Shown here piece by piece: positions 3,650 to 51,781 of a stretch of DNA of 59,546 nt (position 1 is its first letter; every line of letters starts with the position of its first letter). The notes below the pieces were generated by a model. It did no database searches. It worked only from the letters and a program-made list of their open reading frames with translations, and was not told the DNA's origin. The DNA is from Deltaproteobacteria bacterium (GTDB lineage Bacteria; Myxococcota_A; UBA9160; UBA6930), in the NCBI GenBank assembly GCA_016875395.1, contig VGRF01000029.1, positions 1-59,546 of the forward strand, read 5' to 3'. The translations under genes and the position numbers were made by a program.

Positions 3650-4123
3650 ATGCCCAAGCTCCACATCGAAACCACGCTCAACGGCGAGCCCGCCGAGTTC
3701 CTGTGCGAGCCGCACCAGACGCTGCTCGACGCGCTCCGCAACAACGTCGGCCTGACGGGCGTGAAGGAAGGCTGCGCAACCGGCGACTGCGGCGCGTGCA
3801 GCGTGATGTTCGACGGCCGCCTCACCTGCGCCTGCCTCGTGCTCGCCGCCGAGGCCGAGGGCCGCAAGATCGAGACCGTCGAAGGCGTCGCGGCGCCGGG
3901 CCAGCTTCATCCCGTGCAGCAGAAGCTGCTCGAGCACGCGGGCCTGCAGTGCGGCGTGTGCACGCCGGGCATCGTGGTGGCCGCGAAGGCGCTGCTCGAG
4001 AAGAATCCCGACCCGTCGGAGCGCGAGATCCGCTTCGGACTCGCGGGCAACCTCTGCCGCTGCACGGGCTACGACAAGATCATCCGCGCGGTGCAGGACG
4101 CCGCGGCGACGATGCGGGGCTGA
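3650..4123 (+). CDS. Molybdenum hydroxylase 2Fe-2S (small) subunit
   Basis: This is a 157-aa CoxS/CutS-type iron-sulfur subunit. The N-terminal plant-type ferredoxin domain has GCATGDCGAC followed by a fourth cysteine in RLTCAC. The C-terminal four-helix domain has CGVCTPG and NLCRCTGYD, the paired CxxC and CxC that hold the second cluster next to molybdopterin. It relays electrons from molybdenum to FAD. A GGAG is placed just upstream, and the gene closes the four-gene operon. Its 3' end overlaps by 44 bp the end of a convergent small gene. Confidence 0.95.
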   Translation: MPKLHIETTLNGEPAEFLCEPHQTLLDALRNNVGLTGVKEGCATGDCGACSVMFDGRLTCACLVLAAEAEGRKIETVEGVAAPGQLHPVQQKLLEHAGLQCGVCTPGIVVAAKALLEKNPDPSEREIRFGLAGNLCRCTGYDKIIRAVQDAAATMRG

Positions 4124-4274
4124 GGCTTCTCAGCGGCCCGGCTTGCTCGCCGTCTTCTCGCTCGAAGGAGCGGGGGGGCGGCTTCACTGGCGGCATCGGG
4201 ATCACGACGCCTGGTTTGGGGAAGCGTCCACTCCGATCGGATTTCGCGGTCGGTCTGGCCGGCTTTTCACTCAT
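4080..4274 (-). CDS. Small proline/arginine-rich protein, coupled to the upstream 2TM protein
   Basis: This is a predicted 64-aa protein starting MSEKPARPTAKSDRSGRFP, with a central run VVIPMPPVKPPPRSFERED and a basic tail. Its ATG overlaps the TGA of the upstream 2TM gene (ATGA at 4271-4274), so translation is likely coupled. No domain is recognisable; the composition suggests a disordered, ligand-like peptide or an accessory/antitoxin partner. Its last 44 bases overlap the end of the 2Fe-2S subunit gene on the other strand. It is supported by the overlap and the unusual sequence, not by homology. Confidence 0.5.
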   Translation of the reverse strand: MSEKPARPTAKSDRSGRFPKPGVVIPMPPVKPPPRSFEREDGEQAGPLRSLSPASSPRRPAPRG

Positions 4275-4780
4275 GAGTTCCTCCCGGGGTAGCGGGCGAT
4301 AAAATAGTCGCGCGTCAGCTGGTCGGCCCGCGTGGACAGGGTCGAGTCGCTCGGAATCGTCAGCTCTCCAAGGCACCGATACTCGGCTTCCGCTTTGCGC
4401 TCTCGGAGCGAAATTCGCATCTCGTGAATTCGGCGCTCGTCCACAATTCCCTCGGCGACGTCGAACCAATCTCGTTCGGCGGCCAAGAGCAGCTGTTCGA
4501 GTTCCACGCGATAGCGGGGACACTTGTGAAGGCGTTCCCTCAGCGAGAAGACGTGGCGCACGGTCGCGATGACTTGTGATGCGGCGATCACTCCGGCCCA
4601 AACAAAGCCGAGCTCGCTCCAGATCGCCCAGCCGCTGATGCTCGCACTCGACGCGACCGCGAGGATCACGTCGATTCGCCTGTGAAGTGTCTCGTCCCGC
4701 TGAATGAGCTCGAGGAGGTAGTTCGACTCCCAACCGAACTCGGTCATCTCGGTCCAGTACTGCTGCTGACACGCACTCAT
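4271..4780 (-). CDS. Hypothetical two-transmembrane protein (SLATT-like architecture)
   Basis: This is a 169-aa protein of unknown function. Residues about 35-70 hold two hydrophobic stretches (VILAVASSASISGWAIW and FVWAGVIAASQVIATV), followed by a charged helical C-terminal half rich in Arg and Glu (SLRERLHKCPRY, ISLRERKAEAEYRCLGEL). Two TM helices near the N-terminus plus a cytosolic helical tail recall 2TM pore-type effectors such as SLATT proteins, but I see no diagnostic motif. Its base composition is less GC-rich than its neighbours, which suggests acquisition. It is coupled to the small proline-rich gene through an ATGA overlap. Confidence 0.6.
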   Translation of the reverse strand: MSACQQQYWTEMTEFGWESNYLLELIQRDETLHRRIDVILAVASSASISGWAIWSELGFVWAGVIAASQVIATVRHVFSLRERLHKCPRYRVELEQLLLAAERDWFDVAEGIVDERRIHEMRISLRERKAEAEYRCLGELTIPSDSTLSTRADQLTRDYFIARYPGRNS

Positions 4781-4848
4781 GTACGCAACCTATGCCCGAG
4801 CCTCGCCGAGGCGCGACGAAAAAAATCGCCAAACGCTGCCAAACCGCG

Positions 4849-5790
4849 TCAGACCAGCGCCGAGAGCACCCGCGCGCCCGCATCATCGCAAGCTGTTACG
4901 GGAACGATCGCGATCTCGTCCGCGCCCGCGTCGAGGTAGTCGCGCAGGCGCGCGCGCAGCTGCTGCGCGTCGCCGAGCGCCGCGACTGTGCCGAGCAGGG
5001 CGCGCGGCACTTCGTGCGCGAGCTTCGCCTGCGGCTCGCCGCTGCGTGCGCGGTCGACGAGCGCGCCGAAGCCCGCCGCGCGGAACATCTCGCCGTAACC
5101 GGGCGGCGCGAGATAGACGCACACCTGGCGCGCGAGCTGCGCGATCGCCTCCGCGCCCGGATCGAGCGCAGCGGTGAGCCAAACCGCGAGGCGCGGGCGC
5201 GCGCGGCCGGCGGAGCGCGCTTCGCGCTCGAGCGTGGCGCGCGTCTCGCGCACCGCCGCGGGTGTGACGAGATTCAGCAGCGCGCGGTCCGCTTCGCGAG
5301 CGGCGACACCTAACATCTTCGGGCCGAACCCCGCGAGCGTGAGCTCCGGCGACGGTGCGGCGACGCGCAGCTTGAAGCCTCGCTCGTTGCGGTCGCCGCG
5401 GAGCAGCGGGCGCAGCGCGGCGATCGTCTCGCTCGCGCGCTCGGGAAGGCGCGCGTACTCGCGTCCGTGCCAGCCCGTGACGATCGCGGGGCTCGAGGCG
5501 CCGAGCGCGAGCCGCGCCGGGCGGCCGCCGAGCTCGCTCACGCTGCCCGCGCCGAGCGCGAGCGCGACGTGGCTGCGCACGCCGAGCGCGAGCGGGCCGA
5601 GCGTGAGCGCGAGCTTCGTCTCGCGCGCGATCGCGCCGCCCAGCGCGAACGCGTCGAACGTCGCCATCTCGCCGATCCACAGCTCGGGGTAGCCGAGGCG
5701 GTCCGCTTCGCGCGCGATCTCGAGCGCCTCGCTCGCGGGGCGCCCGAGCCAGTACGGCAGCACGACCGCGTGGGCGATTCGTCCGCTCAT
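4849..5790 (-). CDS. LLM-class flavin-dependent oxidoreductase
   Basis: This is a 313-aa TIM-barrel protein of the bacterial luciferase-like monooxygenase family (FMN- or F420-dependent). Features are the N-terminal AREADRLGYPELWIGE strand-helix unit, TLGPLALGVRSHVALA, GGRPARLALGASSPAIVTGWHG around residue 95-110, and a C-terminal DYLDAGADEIAIVPV repeat typical of the family. The substrate is not evident. It is a single gene, convergent to nothing close and divergent from the SIMPL gene at 5904. A second, more clearly F420-type member lies at 32.7-33.7 kb. Confidence 0.85.
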   Translation of the reverse strand: MSGRIAHAVVLPYWLGRPASEALEIAREADRLGYPELWIGEMATFDAFALGGAIARETKLALTLGPLALGVRSHVALALGAGSVSELGGRPARLALGASSPAIVTGWHGREYARLPERASETIAALRPLLRGDRNERGFKLRVAAPSPELTLAGFGPKMLGVAAREADRALLNLVTPAAVRETRATLEREARSAGRARPRLAVWLTAALDPGAEAIAQLARQVCVYLAPPGYGEMFRAAGFGALVDRARSGEPQAKLAHEVPRALLGTVAALGDAQQLRARLRDYLDAGADEIAIVPVTACDDAGARVLSALV

Positions 5791-8315: not shown

Positions 8316-8630
8316 GTGCCTAACAACCTCGGCGACCGCGACGACCGCTTCGAGCTCTCGCTCTTCTGGCGCAACTCGACGCTCTGGCCCGTCACGTTCT
8401 GCGTGATCGCCGGCCTGTCCGCGCTGGGCGCCTGGGCCGTGACGCTCGCGCTCACGCAACGCAACCCCTTCGCACGCCTCGCGCTCGCGCTCGCCGCGGC
8501 GATGACCCTGTTCGCGCTGTGGGACGCGCGCTCGCGCAAAGGCACGCTCGGCGGCGGCGCGGTGGTGGTGGGCGTGATCTGGGTGCTGAGCGCGATCGGC
8601 GGGTGGTGGCTGGCGGGGGTGGGGCGGTGA
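8316..8630 (+). CDS. Small membrane protein of unknown function
   Basis: This 104-aa protein starts with GTG at 8316 (reading PNNLGDRDDRFELSLFWRN after the first residue). It has three hydrophobic segments: about residues 24-45, 53-66 and 80-102. The polar N-terminus is probably cytosolic. It follows the lipoprotein gene by 29 bp and may be co-transcribed with it. No family is recognised. The second and third codons sit on a TAACAA motif. Confidence 0.65.
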   Translation: MPNNLGDRDDRFELSLFWRNSTLWPVTFCVIAGLSALGAWAVTLALTQRNPFARLALALAAAMTLFALWDARSRKGTLGGGAVVVGVIWVLSAIGGWWLAGVGR

Positions 8631-8633
8631 GGT

Positions 8634-9700
8634 TCACTCGCTGGCGAGGCGTCGCAAGACAGCCATGCATCTCGTGATTAAGGCGTCTGACCCCCTGAAG
8701 TCCTGAAACTCGTCGAGCCGCATGCCGACAGCGGGGCCAGCGAGGCCAAGGGTTCCCGCGTAGTTCTTTACAACGCCGCACGCGAACTTCTTCGATGAAG
8801 CGCCGAACTTGATGGACCGCCCGTTCGTGCCTTGGACGAGGATTGAGCTTCCCCGTCTAACGACCCGCGCACCTGACGCCTCGCAGGCGGTCAGGAAGTC
8901 TTTGACTGTCATCTCACTGACCGACGGGTCGTGGCTCGTCGTCCTCTCGCGCCACCAACTCGAAATTGACTCGACCACCTCATCAATCGGCCTCGCTCGG
9001 GTTTCGTCGGGGAACGTTCCGGCGGCTACCTGTGTGACGAACAAAAAATCTCGTCGTCAGAGACGTCTGAACGAAGGTGCCAACCGTTCCGGTCGAGAAA
9101 GGCCAGAGTGCCCACGAGTGCAGTGCGCTTGTTCCCGTTGTGAAATGGATGGTTCTTCACGAGCGAGTGAAAGAGGGCAGCTGCTTTTTGTGGAACGGTC
9201 CGGTACTTCTCGTGCTCACCAATCGAAGTCCGCGGCCGAAGCAACGCCGAAGCGAGAAGGTTCTTGTCGCGTGGCCCTGAAGGGGTGATCGGATCGCTCT
9301 CTCTGGCGAAGAACTCCACGAGTGCGAAATGGATGGCCAAGACTTCGCTCTCTGTGAGGAACTCGACAGACTCAGCAGAAGGCCGTGGAGGCGCGCCGCG
9401 GCGCTCAGGTTCTGAGGGGTGCGCGAGGTTGACCGCAACAGCCGTCCGAGTGTGGGGAGCGGCCGATCGTTCAACCAGGTCGACTCGTTGCGGGTTGAGC
9501 AGGGCAGTTGCCGGCGACGGAGTCGACTGACTGGGCGGCGCGAGTAGGAGCCGAATCGCAGCGTCTAGTCTGAACCGAGAAATCTGATCATTGATCGAGA
9601 CAACCGGAACTCCAGCAGCCCGAAGCCGTATCAACGCCTCATCGGGGGTCATCTGAGCGCGGACCGCAAGATGCCGTACTCGTCGTTTGCGCATAGGCAT
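8634..9700 (-). pseudogene. Fic/Doc-family protein with C-terminal HicA-like extension, frameshifted
   Basis: Read from 9700, residues about 1-60 are a short unknown domain (MTPDEALIRLRAAGVPVV), then a low-complexity linker. Then comes a death-on-curing domain with the motif HPFHNGNKRTA at 184-194 (catalytic His and the anion-hole/NKR loop). The frame ends at DDEIFCSSHR around 9029. Restoring one T in the six-T run near 9045-9050 joins DDEIF to LFVTQVAAGTFP in the next frame, the expected end of a Doc fold. That frame continues to 8634 through VKDFLTACEASGARVVRRG, a stretch that resembles the small HicA RNA-binding fold. The repaired length is about 355 aa. This could be a real loss of function, a slippage site or a sequencing indel. 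The region is less GC-rich than its neighbours, and no antitoxin gene is adjacent. Confidence 0.75.
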
Positions 9701-9727
9701 GACTCCGTTGTTCCCCTGGTGAACGTC

Positions 9728-10930
9728 TTACAAGTCCGGCGTCTCGACCTCGTACCCGCTCTTCCTGAGCTCGCCGCAGATCTTTTGCAGGTGCTTCTCC
9801 CCCCGCGTCGACACCACGAACTCGACCTCCGCTTGCTTGATCGCGACGCGCCCGAACGCGCGCTCGTGCTCGATCTCGATCACGTTCGCGCCGCGATCGG
9901 CGAGGATTCTCGTCACGGTGGCGAGCGCGCCGGGGCGGTCGTCGATGCGAACGGTCAGGCGCACGAGGCGCTTCGAACGCGCGAGGCCGCGCTCGATCAC
10001 GGAGCGGAGCACGAGTAGGTCGATGTTGCCGCCGCTGAGCACGACGCCGACGCGCCGGCCGGCGAAGAGCGCGCGGTGGCGCAGCACGGCGGCGAGCGCG
10101 GCGGCGCCGGCGCCTTCGGCCACGGTTTTCTCGATGTCGAGCAGCGCGAGCACGGCTTCTTCGAGGTCGACTTCGCTGACGAGCAGGATGTCCTTCGCGC
10201 GCTGGCGCAGGATCTCGCGCGTGATTGCGCCCGGACGCTTCACGGCGATGCCTTCGGCGATCGTGTCGCGGCCGCACGTGATCGCTTCGCCCGCGAGCGC
10301 CTGCTTCATCGACGGGAAGAGGACCGTCTCGACGCCGTAGACGGGCACGCCTTCCGCGGCGATCGCGCAGCCCGAGGCGAGGCCGCCGCCGCCGACGGGG
10401 ATCACGAGCGCGTCGAGCCGCGCGTGATCCTCGAGCATCTCGAGCGCGACGGTGCCTTGGCCCGCGATCACGGCGGGGTCGTCGTAGGGGTGCACGAAGG
10501 TGAAGCCGTGCTCGCGCGCGAGCGCGCTGGCGCGGTCGTTCGCGGCGTTCAGGTCGTCGCCGAACAGCTCGACTCGCGCGCCGAGCTTCTCGGTGTGCTC
10601 CACCTTCGTGTTCGGCGTGTAGCGCGGCATCACGATCGTCGAGCGGATGCCGAGGCGCGTGGCGTGGCGCGCGACGCCCTGCGCGTGATTGCCTGCCGAC
10701 ATCGCGATCACGCCGCGCGCGCGCTCGGCGTCGCTCAGCTGGAGCAGCTTGTTGAGGGCGCCGCGCTCCTTGAAGGAGGCGGTGAACTGCAGGTTCTCGA
10801 ACTTGATGAAGATCTGCGCGCCGGCGATCTCGGAGAGCGTCTTCGATTCGAGGCACGGCGTGCGCACGACGGCGCCCGCGATGCGGGCCGCGGCGGCGCG
10901 CACATCCGCGGCTGTTACGGGATCCGTCAC
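9728..10930 (-). CDS. ilvA: Threonine ammonia-lyase (threonine dehydratase) with ACT domain
   Basis: This is a 400-aa PLP enzyme converting threonine to 2-oxobutyrate and ammonia. The PLP lysine lies in TASFKERGALNKL (about residue 53). Further motifs are SAGNHAQGVA, the phosphate-binding GGGGLASG loop and the C-terminal LSGGNID. Residues about 325-400 form an ACT domain (LVRLTVRIDDRPGALATV). One ACT domain and this length match the TdcB/short-IlvA type, so it could be biosynthetic or catabolic. The GTG start at 10930 overlaps the TGA of the upstream DUF1214 gene by 4 bases, so the two are likely translated together. Confidence 0.93.
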   Translation of the reverse strand: MTDPVTAADVRAAAARIAGAVVRTPCLESKTLSEIAGAQIFIKFENLQFTASFKERGALNKLLQLSDAERARGVIAMSAGNHAQGVARHATRLGIRSTIVMPRYTPNTKVEHTEKLGARVELFGDDLNAANDRASALAREHGFTFVHPYDDPAVIAGQGTVALEMLEDHARLDALVIPVGGGGLASGCAIAAEGVPVYGVETVLFPSMKQALAGEAITCGRDTIAEGIAVKRPGAITREILRQRAKDILLVSEVDLEEAVLALLDIEKTVAEGAGAAALAAVLRHRALFAGRRVGVVLSGGNIDLLVLRSVIERGLARSKRLVRLTVRIDDRPGALATVTRILADRGANVIEIEHERAFGRVAIKQAEVEFVVSTRGEKHLQKICGELRKSGYEVETPDL

Positions 10931-45329: not shown

Positions 45330-47888
45330 CTATTCGGTTTCGATTTCGAGCGTGCGCCGCTCGCGCAGCTCGCGCTCGCGGGCGTCGCGCGGCGACTCGG
45401 GCACGGCGGGCGCGAGCGGTTCGGTGCTGGGTGCGCCCTCGTACACGGTGATCTGGCGCCGCACGCGCAGCGGCTCGCGGCCGTCGACGTGCGCGACGAC
45501 CTCGATCGCATTGGTGCCTGGGGCGACGGGCACGTCTGCGCGGAACGAGCCGTCGGGGCGCATGCGGAAGCCGCTCGCCTTCGCGCCGGTCGTCGCGTTG
45601 CGGATCTCGACGCGATCGAGGCCCGTGAGCCGCACGCTCCGTAACAACGAGACGACGTCGGCAGGGTGCTCGACCGGCACGAAGCGCCCGCCCGTCCGCG
45701 CCGCGATCTCGCGATACATCTCGAGCTTCGCGAGCGCCTGCGGTCCGAGCGCGAAGGTGTGCACCGGTACGCCGTAGCGCGCCAAGTCGTCGGCCGCCTC
45801 GAGCGCCTCCTTCTCGCCCTTCTCTCGCGACGGAACGGTCGGTTGCCCGTCCGACAACAGCAGCACCGCGCGATGTCGCGCGCGCTCCGGGTCGCGCGCG
45901 TCGTTCAGCGCGCGGAACGCGACGCGCAGCGCGTCGGCGATGCTCGTGCCGTTGTCGTGAAAGCCGGCGGCGTAAACGTCGAGCTGGCGGGCCACGCTGC
46001 GCGGGTGACCCAGCGCGGAGTCGACCCACGCGAAGCCGGCGAACGACACGAGGCCGACGCGCATCGTGTCGGGATCGAGCTGCGCCATCAGGCGACGTGC
46101 CGCCGCGACCTCGGCGGACACGACGGAGTCGCCGATCTCGGCAGCCGCGACGAAAGACAGCGAGCCCACCTCCTGGTTGACGTAGCGGTCGCGCGTGCGA
46201 TTGCGCGCGGCGCGGCCGTTGCCGTCGATGTCGCGCCCGGTCGCGACGAGCGTGCTCTCGGATTCGTCGAGCGCGATCACGACATCGTGGAACGCGGCCT
46301 CCCAGCGCCCGCCGCGCCCGCTGATCTCCACGCTCGCCAGGCCGCGCACCGCCGGCGGCGCGCTCACTTCGAGATGCGCCGTGAGATGCCGCGTCGCGAT
46401 CGGGCCGCCGGAATCGCCGCGCGCGCGGCGCAGCAGCGTCTCCAGCTCCTCGGCGCTCGTGCCGCGCAGGTCTTCGTGCGCGCGTGAGAGCACGCGGGCG
46501 AGCTGCGCGCGCGCGGAGCTCCCGTCGTTCGCTTCGAGCGCGAGCTTCGCGAGCGCAACGTCGAGGCCGCCGAGCGCGGGCATGCGCGCCTGCGCATCGC
46601 CGAGCAGCGTCTCGGCTTCGACCCGCTCGCCGCGCAGGCGCGCGAGCTCGGCACGCCCGAGCTGCGTCGTGACCGCGTGGCGCTCGATCGCGGCGCTGTC
46701 CCCTAACAAGCGCTCCGCTTCGGCGAGTTGCCCCTCGCTCGCGGGGTCGTCGCGCGTCGCGAGAGCGAGCCGCGCGAGAGCGAGCGCGCGCAGCGCCGCA
46801 GCATCGCTCTGGGCGAGCGCCTCCGTCTCGGCGATCCCCGCCTCGACGCGCTCGCGGTCGTCGCCGCGCAGCGCTCGCAGCTGGACGAGCTGCGCCGCCG
46901 CGCTCGGATGACGCAGCGCCGCGCTGCGCAGCCAACGCTCCGCGGGCGTCCACGCGAACTTGCCGAGCGACAGCGCGAGCTCGCCGAGCAGCGCGTCGCG
47001 ATCGGCGGGTGCGAGCGCAGCCGGCGCGCCGATCTCGCCGACGCCGAGCTGCGCGAGCGGAATCTTGCGCCGCGGCAGCTCGCCGAAGCTGAGAAAGCGC
47101 AGCAGCTCCGCTTCGAGCGCGTCGGGCGCTGCGCCGAACGCGTCGGCGCACGCGGCCTCGGGCGCCGCACCGCTGCGCACGAGATCGAGGTAGCGAGCGA
47201 GCTGCGCGTCGCGATCCGCAAAGCCCAGCTGTTCGCCCTCCAACAAGTAGTGGAGCAGCGCCCAGCTCTCGGCGGCGAGGCCTTCGCGCGCGTGCTGCGA
47301 CCAGCGCAGCGTCTCCTTCGCGGTGAGCACGCGCTTCAGCGGGTGCAGCGTCGCGAGCGAGAACCACTCGAGCCGCGCGCGCGGTGGGCGCCCGAGCTCG
47401 AGCGCTCCCGCTTCGGCGCGCGCCGTCGAGACGAGCTCGGCGGCGCCTTCTTCGAGCCAGAGCGGGCGTCCGTCATCGGGATCGCTCGCGGCCAGCAGAT
47501 GCACGAGCGCATGCTGTGCTGCGGTGAGCGCCTGCTCGGGCAGCGAAGCATCGAGCACGAGGTAGGCGCGCTCGGGGGTCACCTGCAGGAACGCGCTCGC
47601 GCCGGAGAGCGGCCGCAGGAACGCATAGCCCTCCGTGGGCGCGAGCTCGATCGCCGTAACAGCTGGGAGTCTTTCGCCGCGCGCGCCGGTCAGGCCGCTC
47701 GCCGCGGCGAGCGCGCGCTCGAGCTGAAGCGCGAGAGCCTGGGCACGTGCGCCGCCGCCGCTGCTCACCGCCTCGATGTGCGCGCCGCGTGCGGCGGAGA
47801 ACGCGGCGGGCGGCGCGGAGGGCGCAGTCTCGGCCCGCGCAAGCCCCGCGAGCGCGACCACGGCGAGAGCGAGGCGTGCGGACTTCAC
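45330..47888 (-). CDS. VWA-domain protein with inactive-looking gluzincin domain (VWA cluster, gene 3)
   Basis: This is an 852-aa exported protein (signal MKSARLALAVVALAGLARAE). Domains: a peptidase-MA-like region with AQHALVHLL (H126-A127-L-V-H130) and a Glu at 147 (PLWLEEGAAEL); the expected HELVH Glu is Ala, so catalysis is probably lost. Then an alpha-helical repeat region (about 270-480), a VWA domain with MIDAS DESES (541-545), the conserved DIDGNG insert, GTS and SDGQ, and a C-terminal beta-sandwich (ending in a charged tail ERELRERRTLEIETE). Its ATG overlaps the stop of the VWA lipoprotein gene upstream (ATGA at 47885-47888). Confidence 0.82.
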   Translation of the reverse strand: MKSARLALAVVALAGLARAETAPSAPPAAFSAARGAHIEAVSSGGGARAQALALQLERALAAASGLTGARGERLPAVTAIELAPTEGYAFLRPLSGASAFLQVTPERAYLVLDASLPEQALTAAQHALVHLLAASDPDDGRPLWLEEGAAELVSTARAEAGALELGRPPRARLEWFSLATLHPLKRVLTAKETLRWSQHAREGLAAESWALLHYLLEGEQLGFADRDAQLARYLDLVRSGAAPEAACADAFGAAPDALEAELLRFLSFGELPRRKIPLAQLGVGEIGAPAALAPADRDALLGELALSLGKFAWTPAERWLRSAALRHPSAAAQLVQLRALRGDDRERVEAGIAETEALAQSDAAALRALALARLALATRDDPASEGQLAEAERLLGDSAAIERHAVTTQLGRAELARLRGERVEAETLLGDAQARMPALGGLDVALAKLALEANDGSSARAQLARVLSRAHEDLRGTSAEELETLLRRARGDSGGPIATRHLTAHLEVSAPPAVRGLASVEISGRGGRWEAAFHDVVIALDESESTLVATGRDIDGNGRAARNRTRDRYVNQEVGSLSFVAAAEIGDSVVSAEVAAARRLMAQLDPDTMRVGLVSFAGFAWVDSALGHPRSVARQLDVYAAGFHDNGTSIADALRVAFRALNDARDPERARHRAVLLLSDGQPTVPSREKGEKEALEAADDLARYGVPVHTFALGPQALAKLEMYREIAARTGGRFVPVEHPADVVSLLRSVRLTGLDRVEIRNATTGAKASGFRMRPDGSFRADVPVAPGTNAIEVVAHVDGREPLRVRRQITVYEGAPSTEPLAPAVPESPRDARERELRERRTLEIETE

Positions 47889-48988
47889 GGCGGCGGCGGG
47901 TCGTAGCGCACGGCGATTTCGCGCGTGAAGCCGAGCGAGCCGCGCATCTCGAAGTCGAGCGCGAGTCGGTTCTCACCGGGCGCGACTTCGACTTCGCTCG
48001 CGAACACGCCCGCCGCTGCGGGAATGATGCGCTCCTCGCCCGTCGTCAGATTTCGCACGACTACGTGGCGCAGCGGCGAGCTCACGAGCGAGGCGAGCTT
48101 TACGCGCGCATCGGGACCATTCGCGTCGAAGGCCTCGCCGCCGGTGACCTCCGCCGCGATTCGCGCCGCATCCACTCGCTTGAACACAGTGGGCGATGCG
48201 AAGTCGACTGCGTGCACTACCACGCCGTACTGCTTGAGGAACTCGGCGGCGGAGCGAGCATGCCTTCTCGCCGTGACCTCGTCGGGCGTTTCTGCTTCGC
48301 CGTCCGAGAGCACGATGATGGTCGCCAACCGCCTTACCTCGTCCCCTCTGCGCGTCGCGAAGAGCGTCGCAGCGGCGCCCAGGGCCCCGCCGATCGATGT
48401 CCCCCTTTCGCACAGAACTCTCAGGGGCCGTGAATCGAACCCATTCACCGAGCGAACACGCTTTCCGTTGCGCGGATTGACGAGGAAGCAGTCACGCCGA
48501 TTGGGGCGCGTCGGCGTCCAGCCAGCGAGCGCCGCCGCGGCATCGGCTGGCGCAGCGAAAGGCGAGAGCATCTCGGAGCGCAGCGCGAACGCGATGACCG
48601 CCACGCGCGACGCCTCGGCATCCATCAGACCGAGGAGCTCGCGCGCCGTACTCACTTCCGCGGCGAGCACATCGTCCCCAGGGTCGGATACGGACTTTGC
48701 GAAGGTCGAGCGGCCGACCTCGCCATCGCCGTCCACGTCGAGGCCACTCGGCCGGTTGGAGCTGCCAGAGCGGTCGATCAGCACGACGAAGTCGCGCTGA
48801 ATCTGAAGGCTGCCGGCAAGCTGGGTAGGGGACTCACGCACGACGCGAGGCGAATCGAGGTTCACCTCCGCGGACACGCGCAGCGGCTCGCCGAGCGGCT
48901 CTGCGGGAGGCGGCGTTGGCGCAGCGCACGCGAGCGACGAGGTCACGACCGCTGCGCAGGTGAACACTCGCAGCATGCACGCCTCCAA
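47885..48988 (-). CDS. VWA-domain lipoprotein (VWA cluster, gene 2)
   Basis: This is a 367-aa protein. The N-terminus MEACMLRVFTCAAVVTSSLAC may be processed as a lipoprotein at SLAC; a start at the second Met (48976) is equally possible. A short Pro-rich spacer leads to a VWA domain from about residue 66: FVVLIDRSGSSN (DRSGS MIDAS), DVDGDGEVGRS, later GTSIGGALGA and VLSDGEAETPDEV. The C-terminal VEVAPGENRLALDFEMRG matches the beta-sandwich of the two larger neighbours. It lacks the peptidase-like and helical-repeat parts. Confidence 0.8.
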   Translation of the reverse strand: MEACMLRVFTCAAVVTSSLACAAPTPPPAEPLGEPLRVSAEVNLDSPRVVRESPTQLAGSLQIQRDFVVLIDRSGSSNRPSGLDVDGDGEVGRSTFAKSVSDPGDDVLAAEVSTARELLGLMDAEASRVAVIAFALRSEMLSPFAAPADAAAALAGWTPTRPNRRDCFLVNPRNGKRVRSVNGFDSRPLRVLCERGTSIGGALGAAATLFATRRGDEVRRLATIIVLSDGEAETPDEVTARRHARSAAEFLKQYGVVVHAVDFASPTVFKRVDAARIAAEVTGGEAFDANGPDARVKLASLVSSPLRHVVVRNLTTGEERIIPAAAGVFASEVEVAPGENRLALDFEMRGSLGFTREIAVRYDPPPP

Positions 48989-49138
48989 TTCGGCCCCGGC
49001 CGTCTTGTACCACCCGCGCCGCGACCGTGGCAGCTGCCGCGTGCGTGATCCTGCTCGCGTTGGCGCCTCCGGTGCGCGGGACCGACAAGTCCCCGGAACG
49101 CGTCGTTCTCGTCACGCGGCCCGCCCCAACCGTCTTGA

Positions 49139-51781
49139 TCACTCGGGCGCGGGCGGCGGCGCGCTCACGTCCTTCGTCTCGATCGAGAGCGCGCGCCGCT
49201 GCTGCTCCCGCTCGGTGCGCTCCGCCTCGAGGCGCGCGCGCAATGCGATCGCCTCGGTACGCTCGCGCAGCTTTCGCAGCAACTCGGCGGCGCGAGCTTC
49301 GCGGGCGGCGTCGTCGCTCGACGCGGGCTCGTAGACGATCGTGCGCGTCGCGAGCAGCGGCGCGCGGCCGGCGACGCGCGCCTCGATCTCGATCTCGTTC
49401 GTGCCGGGCGCGAGCGGCACCAGCGCGTCGAAGCTGCCGTCCGGGAAGCTGCGCACCGCGCGGGCGGGCTCGCCGCTGCCCTTGTTACGGACGGAGACCG
49501 CGTCGAGGCCGGTGAGCCGCGCGCGCTCGAGGAACGAGATGTCGGCGAGGTCGGCGACCGCGAAGTACTCGCCGCCGGTGATGTCCGCGATCTCTCGCAG
49601 CGTGTCGCCCTCGTCCGAGGCGCGCTCGCCGACGGCGAAGGCGTGCACGCGAACGCCGAACTCGCCGAGGCGCGTCGCGATCTCGAGCGCCGCCTTCCGC
49701 GCTTCGAACGGATTCGGCGCCGTGGGATCCTGGCCGTCGGTCAGGAACAGGACGCTGCGCTGCGCGCGGTCGCCGGGCGGGCGGTTCTCGATCAGCTCCT
49801 CGAACGCGCGGCGCAGCGGCGCCTCGAAGCTCGTGCCGGTGGGGTCGAAGCGCACGCGGTGCCTCTGCAGCGCGCGAATCACCTCGTCGCGATCGCCGAG
49901 CGGCGCCGCGAGCTTCGCCTTCGCGGTGAAGAACACGAGGCCGATGCGGGTCGTGCGCCCATCGAGCTCGGCCGCGAGCCGTTCGGCGGCGGCGAGCTCG
50001 GCGCGCACGACCGCGTCGCCGCGATCGCTCGACGCGCGGCGCGGGTCGTCGCGCATCCATAACAACTGCTCCATCTTGCGCGCGCGACCGACGCGACCAT
50101 CGCCGTCGACGTCGGCGCCCGAGGCTTCGAGCGTGGTGTTCGAGACGTCGAGCGCGAGCACGATGTCGTGCAGCGGCGCTTCCCAGAGGCCCGCCTTGCC
50201 GCGCAGCTCGAACCACGCCAGATCGCTGCGCGCCTCGGCGCCGGCGGCCGGCGTCGTCACGTCGAGACGCGCAGCGAGGTGGCGCATCTCGGCGGAGACG
50301 TCCGGCGAAAAGCCCGCGTCGCGCGCGAGCCGTGCGAGCTCGTCGAAGTCGGCCGCGCGCAAGTCGTGAGAGCTCGCGAGCACACGCGCGAGCGAAGCGC
50401 GCGCCTGCGCAGAATCGCCGAGTGACTGGTGCGCCCGCGCGAGCTCGCTGTCGACCGCGTTCGCGAGCGGCGCCGCGGCACGCGCGCCCTCGAGATCCCG
50501 CAGCGCGGCGGCGAGCTCGCCGCGCGCGAGCGCGACCTGCGCGCGGCCGAAGCGCGCGCCGGGATGCTCGGGATCGAGCTCGGCCGCGCGCGCGAAGCTC
50601 GCTTCGGCGTTCGCGATCCGCTCGCGTTGCACTTCTTCGCTCGCGTTCTGCGCGGTCAGCGCGAGCCACGCATGGCCAATTCGCCACGCCGCATCGGCGT
50701 CGCGGCTCGCGTGAGACGCCGCCGCGAGCAGCGCCGTCTCCGCGCTGGCATCGCCGCGCAGCGCCGCGAGCGAAGCGAGGCCCGCGTGGGCGAGAGGATG
50801 CTCGGGCTCGCGCGCGAGCACCGCTGCGAGCCAGCGCTGCGCGCGCTTCCAGCGCTGCGCGCCGATCGAGAGCGCGAGATCGCCGAGCAGCGCGTCGCGC
50901 TCGCTGTCGCGGAGCGGCGCGAACGCGAGCGCGGGCGACTCGCGGGCTGCGAACGGCACGCGCACGCGCGGCAGCTCCGGCAGCGCGAGGTATGCGAGCA
51001 GCTCGCGCTCGAGCGCGTCGATGTCGCGGCCGAACGCCGCGAGGCACGCGGCATCGACGGCCTCGCCCGCTGCGACGCGCCGCGCGTAGTCCGCGAGTGC
51101 ACCGTCTGGCGCGCCGCCGCCGACGCGCAGGAAGTGTGCGAGCGCCCACGACTGCGCGTAGAAGCCCGCCAGCGGCCCGCGCTTCCAGTGCATCACGTCG
51201 TTCGCGGCGAGCACTCGCGCGAGCGGCAGCGGCGCCGCGCTGGCAATCTCGAGGCGAAGCTGGAGAGGCGTCCCGATCTCGACTTCGTCGCCGAGCACGC
51301 GCGCCGTCGAGAGCAAGTCCGCCATGCCTTCGCGAATCCACGGCGGCAGCGGCGTGTCCACGTTCGCGGACTGCAGCCAGTGCACGAGCTCGTGGCGCGC
51401 GACCTCGAGGCCCACGTCTCGCTCGCTCGCATCGATCGCGAGGAAGCTGCGGTGCGGGCTCGACACGAACAGCCCGGAGAGCTCGCGGCGCGGGCGCGCC
51501 GCCGCGAAGTTGCGCGTGTGCGGGAACAGCACGACGAGCGTTCGCCCGCTCGGCCGGTCCTCGAGCTGCGTGAACGCGAGCGCGACCTCGCGGAAGCGCT
51601 CGAGCTCTGCAGCGATCTCGCGCGTGCGCTCCTCGCCGAGGCCGCTCGCGAGCTCGAAGTGCGGTGAGCGCGCCAGACGCCACTCGCCGCGCGGACGCAT
51701 CGGCACCGTGCCGCACGCGAGCGAGAGCAGCGCCGCCGTGAGCGCCGTGGCGATGACACGCCGCGTGCATCGTGTTCGCAA
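49139..51781 (-). CDS. VWA-domain protein with gluzincin metallopeptidase motif (VWA cluster, gene 1)
   Basis: This is an 880-aa protein with an N-terminal export signal (MRTRCTRRVIATALTAALLS then LACG, a possible lipoprotein). The peptidase domain has VARHELVHWL (HELVH at 130-134) and WIREGMADLLST with Glu 151, the H-E-x-x-H plus Glu pattern of gluzincins. Residues about 260-480 are helical repeats (AHAGLASLAALRGDASAETA, then LDPEHPGARFGRAQVALARG) of TPR type. The VWA domain has LALDVSNTT (MIDAS about 545), DVDGDGRVGR, GTSFEAPLR and LTDGQDPTAP. The beta-sandwich and a long charged tail (RERTEAIALRARLEAERTER) follow. It is likely co-transcribed with the next two genes. Confidence 0.83.
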   Translation of the reverse strand: MRTRCTRRVIATALTAALLSLACGTVPMRPRGEWRLARSPHFELASGLGEERTREIAAELERFREVALAFTQLEDRPSGRTLVVLFPHTRNFAAARPRRELSGLFVSSPHRSFLAIDASERDVGLEVARHELVHWLQSANVDTPLPPWIREGMADLLSTARVLGDEVEIGTPLQLRLEIASAAPLPLARVLAANDVMHWKRGPLAGFYAQSWALAHFLRVGGGAPDGALADYARRVAAGEAVDAACLAAFGRDIDALERELLAYLALPELPRVRVPFAARESPALAFAPLRDSERDALLGDLALSIGAQRWKRAQRWLAAVLAREPEHPLAHAGLASLAALRGDASAETALLAAASHASRDADAAWRIGHAWLALTAQNASEEVQRERIANAEASFARAAELDPEHPGARFGRAQVALARGELAAALRDLEGARAAAPLANAVDSELARAHQSLGDSAQARASLARVLASSHDLRAADFDELARLARDAGFSPDVSAEMRHLAARLDVTTPAAGAEARSDLAWFELRGKAGLWEAPLHDIVLALDVSNTTLEASGADVDGDGRVGRARKMEQLLWMRDDPRRASSDRGDAVVRAELAAAERLAAELDGRTTRIGLVFFTAKAKLAAPLGDRDEVIRALQRHRVRFDPTGTSFEAPLRRAFEELIENRPPGDRAQRSVLFLTDGQDPTAPNPFEARKAALEIATRLGEFGVRVHAFAVGERASDEGDTLREIADITGGEYFAVADLADISFLERARLTGLDAVSVRNKGSGEPARAVRSFPDGSFDALVPLAPGTNEIEIEARVAGRAPLLATRTIVYEPASSDDAAREARAAELLRKLRERTEAIALRARLEAERTEREQQRRALSIETKDVSAPPPAPE

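Follow-up and report, generated by a model that had tools for sequence, protein, structure and literature searches.

Three adjacent genes that each encode a VWA domain raise the question of what their products are built from and whether they work together as one system. We sought to answer this question for a locus within a window of 59,546 nucleotides, that is the whole stretch of DNA that was analysed, corresponding to contig C29 of a 4.5 Mb genome (G000). We found that the genes are real and well folded in structural models, and that two of them, lying side by side, carry a rare fusion that joins two common modules; one of these looks active and the other is a pseudopeptidase.

Layout of the locus and predicted location of its products

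All three genes lie in one direction on the minus strand (Table 1). A sequence-only reading had described them as a same-direction cluster of VWA genes encoding proteins of 880, 367 and 852 aa. The genes, their direction and the first and last of these lengths stood, and the length of gene 2 was revised to 363 aa. The longer product would begin at a TTG at 48988 that overlaps the GGAGG Shine-Dalgarno sequence, and the ATG at 48976 is therefore the most likely start as judged from the sequence. The start of gene 3 and the stop of gene 2 overlap by 4 bases. Simple scans of the gap between genes 1 and 2 and of the surrounding region returned no promoter-like or terminator-like sites, a result that says little in such a GC-rich genome. 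The flanking genes belong to ordinary metabolism (an S9-type peptidase, an enoyl-CoA hydratase, a FabK-like enzyme, a thiolase and a reductase) and are unrelated to the cluster.

The envelope location proposed earlier agrees with the predicted signals, which comprise two lipoboxes and one Sec signal. Gene 2 carries the lipobox SLAC/A, as expected from its earlier description as a short probable lipoprotein, and gene 3 has a plain Sec signal peptide without a lipobox. The lipobox of gene 1 makes it a second probable lipoprotein, which had been overlooked. Since gene 1 is thus itself a predicted lipoprotein, the suggestion that gene 2 acts as the docking unit is weakened. Lipoproteins are sorted according to the residue at position +2, and by this usual rule the Gly at +2 of gene 1 would direct the protein to the outer membrane.

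Table 1. Positions of genes, motifs and other features of the locus in the window.
Feature	Position	Strand	Remark
Gene 1	49139..51781	-	880 aa; TTG start, GGAGG six bases upstream
Gene 1 lipoprotein signal peptide (residues 1-23), lipobox LSLAC/G	51713..51781	-	read from sequence
Gene 1 HELVH, residues 130-134	51380..51394	-	two His ligands (H130, H134) and catalytic Glu131, on one predicted helix
Gene 1 WIREGMADL, residues 148-156	51314..51340	-	third zinc ligand Glu151, on next predicted helix
Gene 1 FYAQSW, residues 207-212	51146..51163	-	Tyr208
Gene 1 MIDAS start DVSNT (545-549), then DVDGDG loop (557-562)	50096..50149	-	Thr at third MIDAS position
Gene 1 C-terminal sandwich strands (DAVSVRN ... 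APGTNEIEIEARV ... RTIVYE)	49328..49504	-	weak Glucodextran_B-like match
Gap between genes 1 and 2	48977..49138	.	162 bases
Gene 2	47885..48976	-	363 aa; ATG start, GGAGG five bases upstream
Gene 3	45330..47888	-	852 aa; GTG start
Gene 3 HALVH, residues 126-130	47499..47513	-	Ala in place of the catalytic Glu; both His ligands retained
Gene 3 third ligand Glu147	47433..47459	-	kept
Gene 3 GLAAESW, residues 203-209	47262..47282	-	Tyr position is Ala205
Gene 3 MIDAS start DESES, then DIDGNG loop	46215..46268	-	intact
Gene 3 MIDAS part NGTS	45942..45953	-
Gene 3 MIDAS part SDGQ	45843..45854	-

A collagenase-like N-terminal domain joined to a TPR array

The gluzincin-like N-terminal domain and TPR-like repeats noted earlier in two of the genes were recovered in genes 1 and 3. 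The gene 1 product consists of the signal (residues 1-23), the N-domain (approximately 30-275), a TPR array (approximately 285-490), a VWA domain within a beta-sandwich (approximately 500-825) and a charged C-terminal tail. Gene 3 follows the same order, with its Sec signal at the front and a short tail at the end. The repeats directly follow the N-domain, and their Pfam matches are weak.

We assigned the N-domain to a family through its relatives. Peptidase_MA_2 matched gene 1 with an E value of 0.19 for the whole protein and of 0.011 for the isolated N-domain, matches that both fell short of the Pfam gathering score. Across the N-domain set, matches were obtained to DUF1570 in 32 of 34 sequences, to Peptidase_MA_2 in 27 of 34 and to M9 collagenase in 17 of 34, and the best solved relatives of the N-domain profile were microbial collagenases (E 0.0016). 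By these family matches the N-domain belongs to the DUF1570/Peptidase_MA_2 group, with bacterial collagenase its nearest relative among solved structures. The intact HELVH plus Glu reported earlier for gene 1 is indeed present, and an AlphaFold model of its N-domain and TPR array (pLDDT 93.1, pTM 0.92) places HELVH and Glu151 on adjacent predicted helices (residues 95-117 and 124-134 in the numbering of the fragment modelled), so that a confident predicted fold surrounds the zinc motif. A fold search with this model returned TPR matches only and no zincin among the matches listed; the zincin fold therefore rests on the sequence families and on the predicted helix layout.

With the M9 collagenases ColG and ColH the domain shares the gluzincin arrangement, in which HExxH lies on one helix and the Glu on the next. 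In contrast to clostridial collagenases, where the third Glu lies 28-30 residues downstream (PMC3711286), here it follows the second His by 17 residues, and the window proteins are without the collagen-recruitment domains of ColG/ColH. Closer in overall build are DUF1570/Peptidase_MA_2 proteins that likewise join the N-domain to a TPR array, without the VWA module, and that are widespread in Acidobacteria and elsewhere. A text search of the open-access literature for DUF1570 returned a single paper, a survey of deep-sea metagenomes. BepA, an M48 peptidase plus TPR that serves in outer membrane quality control, is likewise an envelope zinc peptidase with TPRs, but it belongs to another peptidase family and lacks a VWA domain.

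Joint loss of catalytic Glu and Tyr in fused proteins

The sequence-only reading had overlooked that the catalytic Glu is lost in gene 3, which carries HALVH and not HExxH. We therefore counted catalytic-site residues in 79 aligned N-domains. HExxH with the Glu ligand was found in 74, HExxH with Asp in 1, HAxxH with the Glu ligand in 3, and KGxxG in 1. The three HAxxH proteins are gene 3 and two homologues designated G004c and G009, and all three are fused to a VWA module. Gluzincins often rely on a downstream Tyr to stabilise their reaction intermediate. At the position of Tyr208 of gene 1 we found Tyr in 74 of the 79 sequences, His in 1 and Ala in 4, and Ala occurs in exactly the four sequences that lack the catalytic Glu. 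Fisher's test gave p = 6.7e-7 for this association, a value that ignores relatedness where at most three independent lineages are involved. Stand-alone relatives of the N-domain keep both the catalytic Glu and Tyr almost without exception, whereas Glu is lost in 3 of 7 fused proteins. From its residues, gene 1 is predicted to be an active peptidase.

Genes 1 and 3 can be aligned from end to end with approximately 40% identity and are sisters in the tree (support 99/97 and 97/97); by this evidence they are sister duplicates, tandem copies of the rare fusion. A single clade uniting gene 3 with G004c and G009 was modestly rejected (AU p = 0.043 and 0.022), so that the change from Glu to Ala, as read from these sequences, probably arose at least twice among fused proteins. 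Each time, the two His and the third Glu ligand were kept on long branches despite the loss of Glu, which argues for a zinc site that is maintained without catalysis. Since an active-looking gene 1 stands next to a zinc-keeping, catalytically dead gene 3, the pair may constitute an enzyme with a built-in non-enzymatic partner.

The survival of ligand residues beyond catalytic ones in gene 3, G004c and G009 would also be expected if these proteins served in surface adhesion or in a matrix. Their peptidase-like domain would then be chiefly a scaffold stabilised by zinc, and the work would fall to the VWA unit, which resembles ITIH1, integrin beta and TRAP structures and would bind ligands through its MIDAS. 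However, the retention of Glu and Tyr by the stand-alone relatives suggests that most of the family is under selection for catalysis, and G004c and G009 have lost their MIDAS residues as well, in contrast to gene 3. We consider the adhesion reading improbable.

Inactive zinc peptidase copies occur widely, yet little is understood about them, and the literature says as much of their roles (PMC3650047). Here an apparently active and an inactive copy lie side by side, with ligands kept, two catalytic residues lost together and the change repeated in a second lineage. Genes 1 and 3 thus provide a natural experiment, and a clean one, on the role of a pseudopeptidase that keeps its zinc site.

Two side observations concern related sequences. 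A fused homologue without the peptidase Glu and Tyr and without the MIDAS residues lies in a syntenic block in two genomes (L023, 8672-11500; L027, 8243-10813). The window's genome also encodes a further short N-domain relative (L036, 9228-10160) whose zinc motif is fully degenerate, reading KRDLVK instead.

A VWA domain predicted to be nested in a beta-sandwich

The VWA domain attributed earlier to all three genes was detected in each of them, by Pfam VWA in genes 1 (E 1.2e-10) and 3 (E 1.5e-8) and by VWA_2 in gene 2 (E 4.1e-5). The three sandwich segments quoted in the sequence-only reading were likewise all located in the three proteins. The DxSxS, Thr and Asp elements of the MIDAS are complete in genes 2 (DRSGS, RGTS and SDGE, with a DVDGDG loop) and 3, and in gene 1 Thr takes the place of the last Ser. 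Gene 2 also contains a Cys-bounded insert (48401-48496) just before the MIDAS Thr, which from its sequence is possibly a disulfide loop.

The AlphaFold model of the gene 1 VWA module (pLDDT 89.6, pTM 0.85) has three strands before the VWA domain and five after it. From this strand order the VWA domain is predicted to be nested in a sandwich resembling the integrin hybrid domain. Rescoring against Glucodextran_B after joining the two sandwich halves changed the score by +1.7, +1.1, -0.5 and -1.3 bits. The best fold matches of the model include archaeal ArnAB, ITIH1 (1.3e-10), BatB and integrin beta chains (2.8e-9). The VWA domain of ITIH1 sits within a hybrid domain, and ITIH1 dimerises through its MIDAS in a cation-dependent manner (PMC7170535). 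On the nesting predicted here, the window proteins would share with ITIH1 and integrin beta a VWA domain with a MIDAS in a hybrid-type sandwich, but they are not members of those families at the sequence level.

The combination of VWA and TPR also recalls the Bat operon of Bacteroides aerotolerance, and thus a Bat-like or MoxR-VWA chaperone of the aerotolerance or cofactor-insertion type. Among solved structures BatB ranks with the best relatives of the VWA domain by sequence as well as by fold, the VWA core is similar to that of BatA/BatB, and TPRs are present. However, no MoxR ATPase, DUF58 or BatD-like gene adjoins the locus, whose immediate neighbours are metabolic genes and the S9 peptidase, and the NCBIfam BatA score for gene 3 was 28.7 against a cut-off of 380. 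We regard such a chaperone as very improbable.

The VWA proteins of the class also have a charged helical C-terminal tail that often ends in an RKELEIxxE-like motif; gene 2 is without it. The tails lie at 49169-49198 in gene 1 and 45333-45359 in gene 3, and others were seen in L145, L144, L015, L138, L006 and further loci. The motif was found in 25 of 35 tails against 9.7 expected in shuffles, an enrichment that is inflated by related sequences and by a pattern picked after viewing the tails.

Comparison with CLCA proteins

The order of zincin, VWA and beta-sandwich is shared with the CLCA proteins of animals and some bacteria (PF08434 metallopeptidase, VWA, beta-sandwich, FnIII). CLCA proteins have expanded by lineage-specific duplication, and some members have substituted catalytic residues (PMC3650047); the window genes are likewise duplicated within their lineage, with one copy substituted at the catalytic site. 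The VWA domain further gave a weak match to the CLCA model TIGR00868 and a match to a CLCA VWA structure. Unlike in CLCA, a TPR array here separates peptidase from VWA, the sandwich is predicted to enclose the VWA domain, and two of the three genes encode predicted lipoproteins. A Pfam scan of the three proteins at E values up to 1 returned no match to PF08434 (CLCA_N), and membership in CLCA was rejected on this ground; the proteins could therefore at most work like CLCA, and the resemblance is probably a convergent design. It is tempting to regard the locus as an independently built bacterial counterpart of CLCA, in which an envelope metallopeptidase with an integrin-like VWA domain is paired with a zinc-bound dead twin that controls or targets it, an idea that we think rather unlikely.

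PADLOC models matched none of the three genes, and an anti-phage defence system was discarded as a candidate. The combination of peptidase, TPR and nested VWA was not found described in the open-access literature searched.

Common modules, a rare fusion and a local arrangement

We searched 91 genomes of the class, a sample in which the window's genome is the sole member of its genus. The VWA and sandwich module is present in all 91, usually in several and often in 5-10 copies, and its hallmark is a DxDGDG or DxNGNG loop shortly after the start of the MIDAS. The sandwich segment noted earlier as shared by the three genes is thus class-wide and was rejected as a mark of the cluster. No function was assigned by the libraries searched to this module, which occurs in every genome examined of a little-known class.

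The full fusion is rare, with 7 genes in 4 of the 91 genomes: two in the window's genome, three in G004 (MAG Deltaproteobacteria OFTM159), one in G009 and one in G085, a genome of another order. A search of the phylum sample, with three candidates scored per genome, gave no match to the full-length fusion outside the class. Other than the window pair, every fused gene is solitary. The surroundings of G004c and G009 are syntenic, and apart from this synteny no partner is common to the neighbours of the fused genes. Gene 2 had no close relatives in 80 genomes of the order (next best match E 3.9e-19), and its very long branch makes its placement in the VWA tree unsure.

If the three genes formed a conserved system, their order should recur in relatives, as the sequence-only reading had suggested checking. 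The genes are not syntenic there: the tandem arrangement was found only in this genome among the 91. Since fused genes elsewhere also stand alone, the window cluster is a local arrangement, and a conserved three-gene system was rejected.

This distribution may be explained by lineage-specific expansion, in which three VWA proteins became adjacent by duplication and each has its own partner, with no shared complex. Paralogues of the VWA module occur at scattered sites in the genomes of the class, other fused genes are found singly and dispersed (the three copies of G004 lie on separate contigs), and the sister duplicates are in tandem in one genome only. On the other side, genes 2 and 3 overlap, all three genes are co-directional without a detected terminator, and simple tandem duplication alone does not place a VWA-only lipoprotein between duplicates. 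We regard expansion without a complex as plausible and nearly as likely as a complex.

A tentative model of an envelope complex

The explanation that we tentatively favour, short of an even chance, is that fusion copies and a VWA-only lipoprotein form an envelope complex joined through the MIDAS. The fusion would combine two common secreted modules, a collagenase-like (DUF1570) gluzincin with its TPR array and the class-wide nested VWA. Gene 1 would be a zinc endopeptidase anchored in the outer membrane, with TPRs that hold a substrate or partner and a MIDAS for binding a second one. Its twin, gene 3, would bind zinc without cutting and has an intact MIDAS, gene 2 would contribute the VWA-only lipoprotein, and MIDAS contacts would join the three proteins. 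In this complex gene 3 may hold, target or temper substrates for gene 1 during envelope protein processing.

The domain anatomy, the duplication, the loss of catalytic residues with ligands kept and the intact MIDAS of genes 2 and 3 can be read directly from the sequences; our further inferences are that gene 1 is a working peptidase, that gene 3 still holds zinc, that MIDAS contacts bring the three proteins together and that gene 1 is tuned or targeted by gene 3. Counted against this explanation are the Thr at the third MIDAS position of gene 1, its weak Peptidase_MA_2 match, the fold search in which only TPR matches were listed and the unrelated flanks. Since the cluster occurs in no other genome, a fixed complex is without comparative support, and the loss of the MIDAS in G004c and G009 indicates that some fused proteins can do without MIDAS binding.

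Neighbours of VWA genes elsewhere in the class

In four class genomes VWA genes have as their neighbour a gene for a small secreted protein with a WDQxRVTxYAxEL-like segment (L024 g5, L025 g10, L032 g9 and L039 g7), which is a candidate partner of the class-wide VWA proteins. In G029 (L163) separate, unfused genes for a VWA protein and for a DUF1570-TPR protein lie approximately 3 kb apart (3900-5183 and 8385-9902), an arrangement that may be due to chance. In the window's genome a longer VWA protein of 701 aa is encoded near a PilT-like gene (L033, 7037-9142 and 13693-14826), and VWA genes were also observed near a similar PilT-like gene at L028 in G022.
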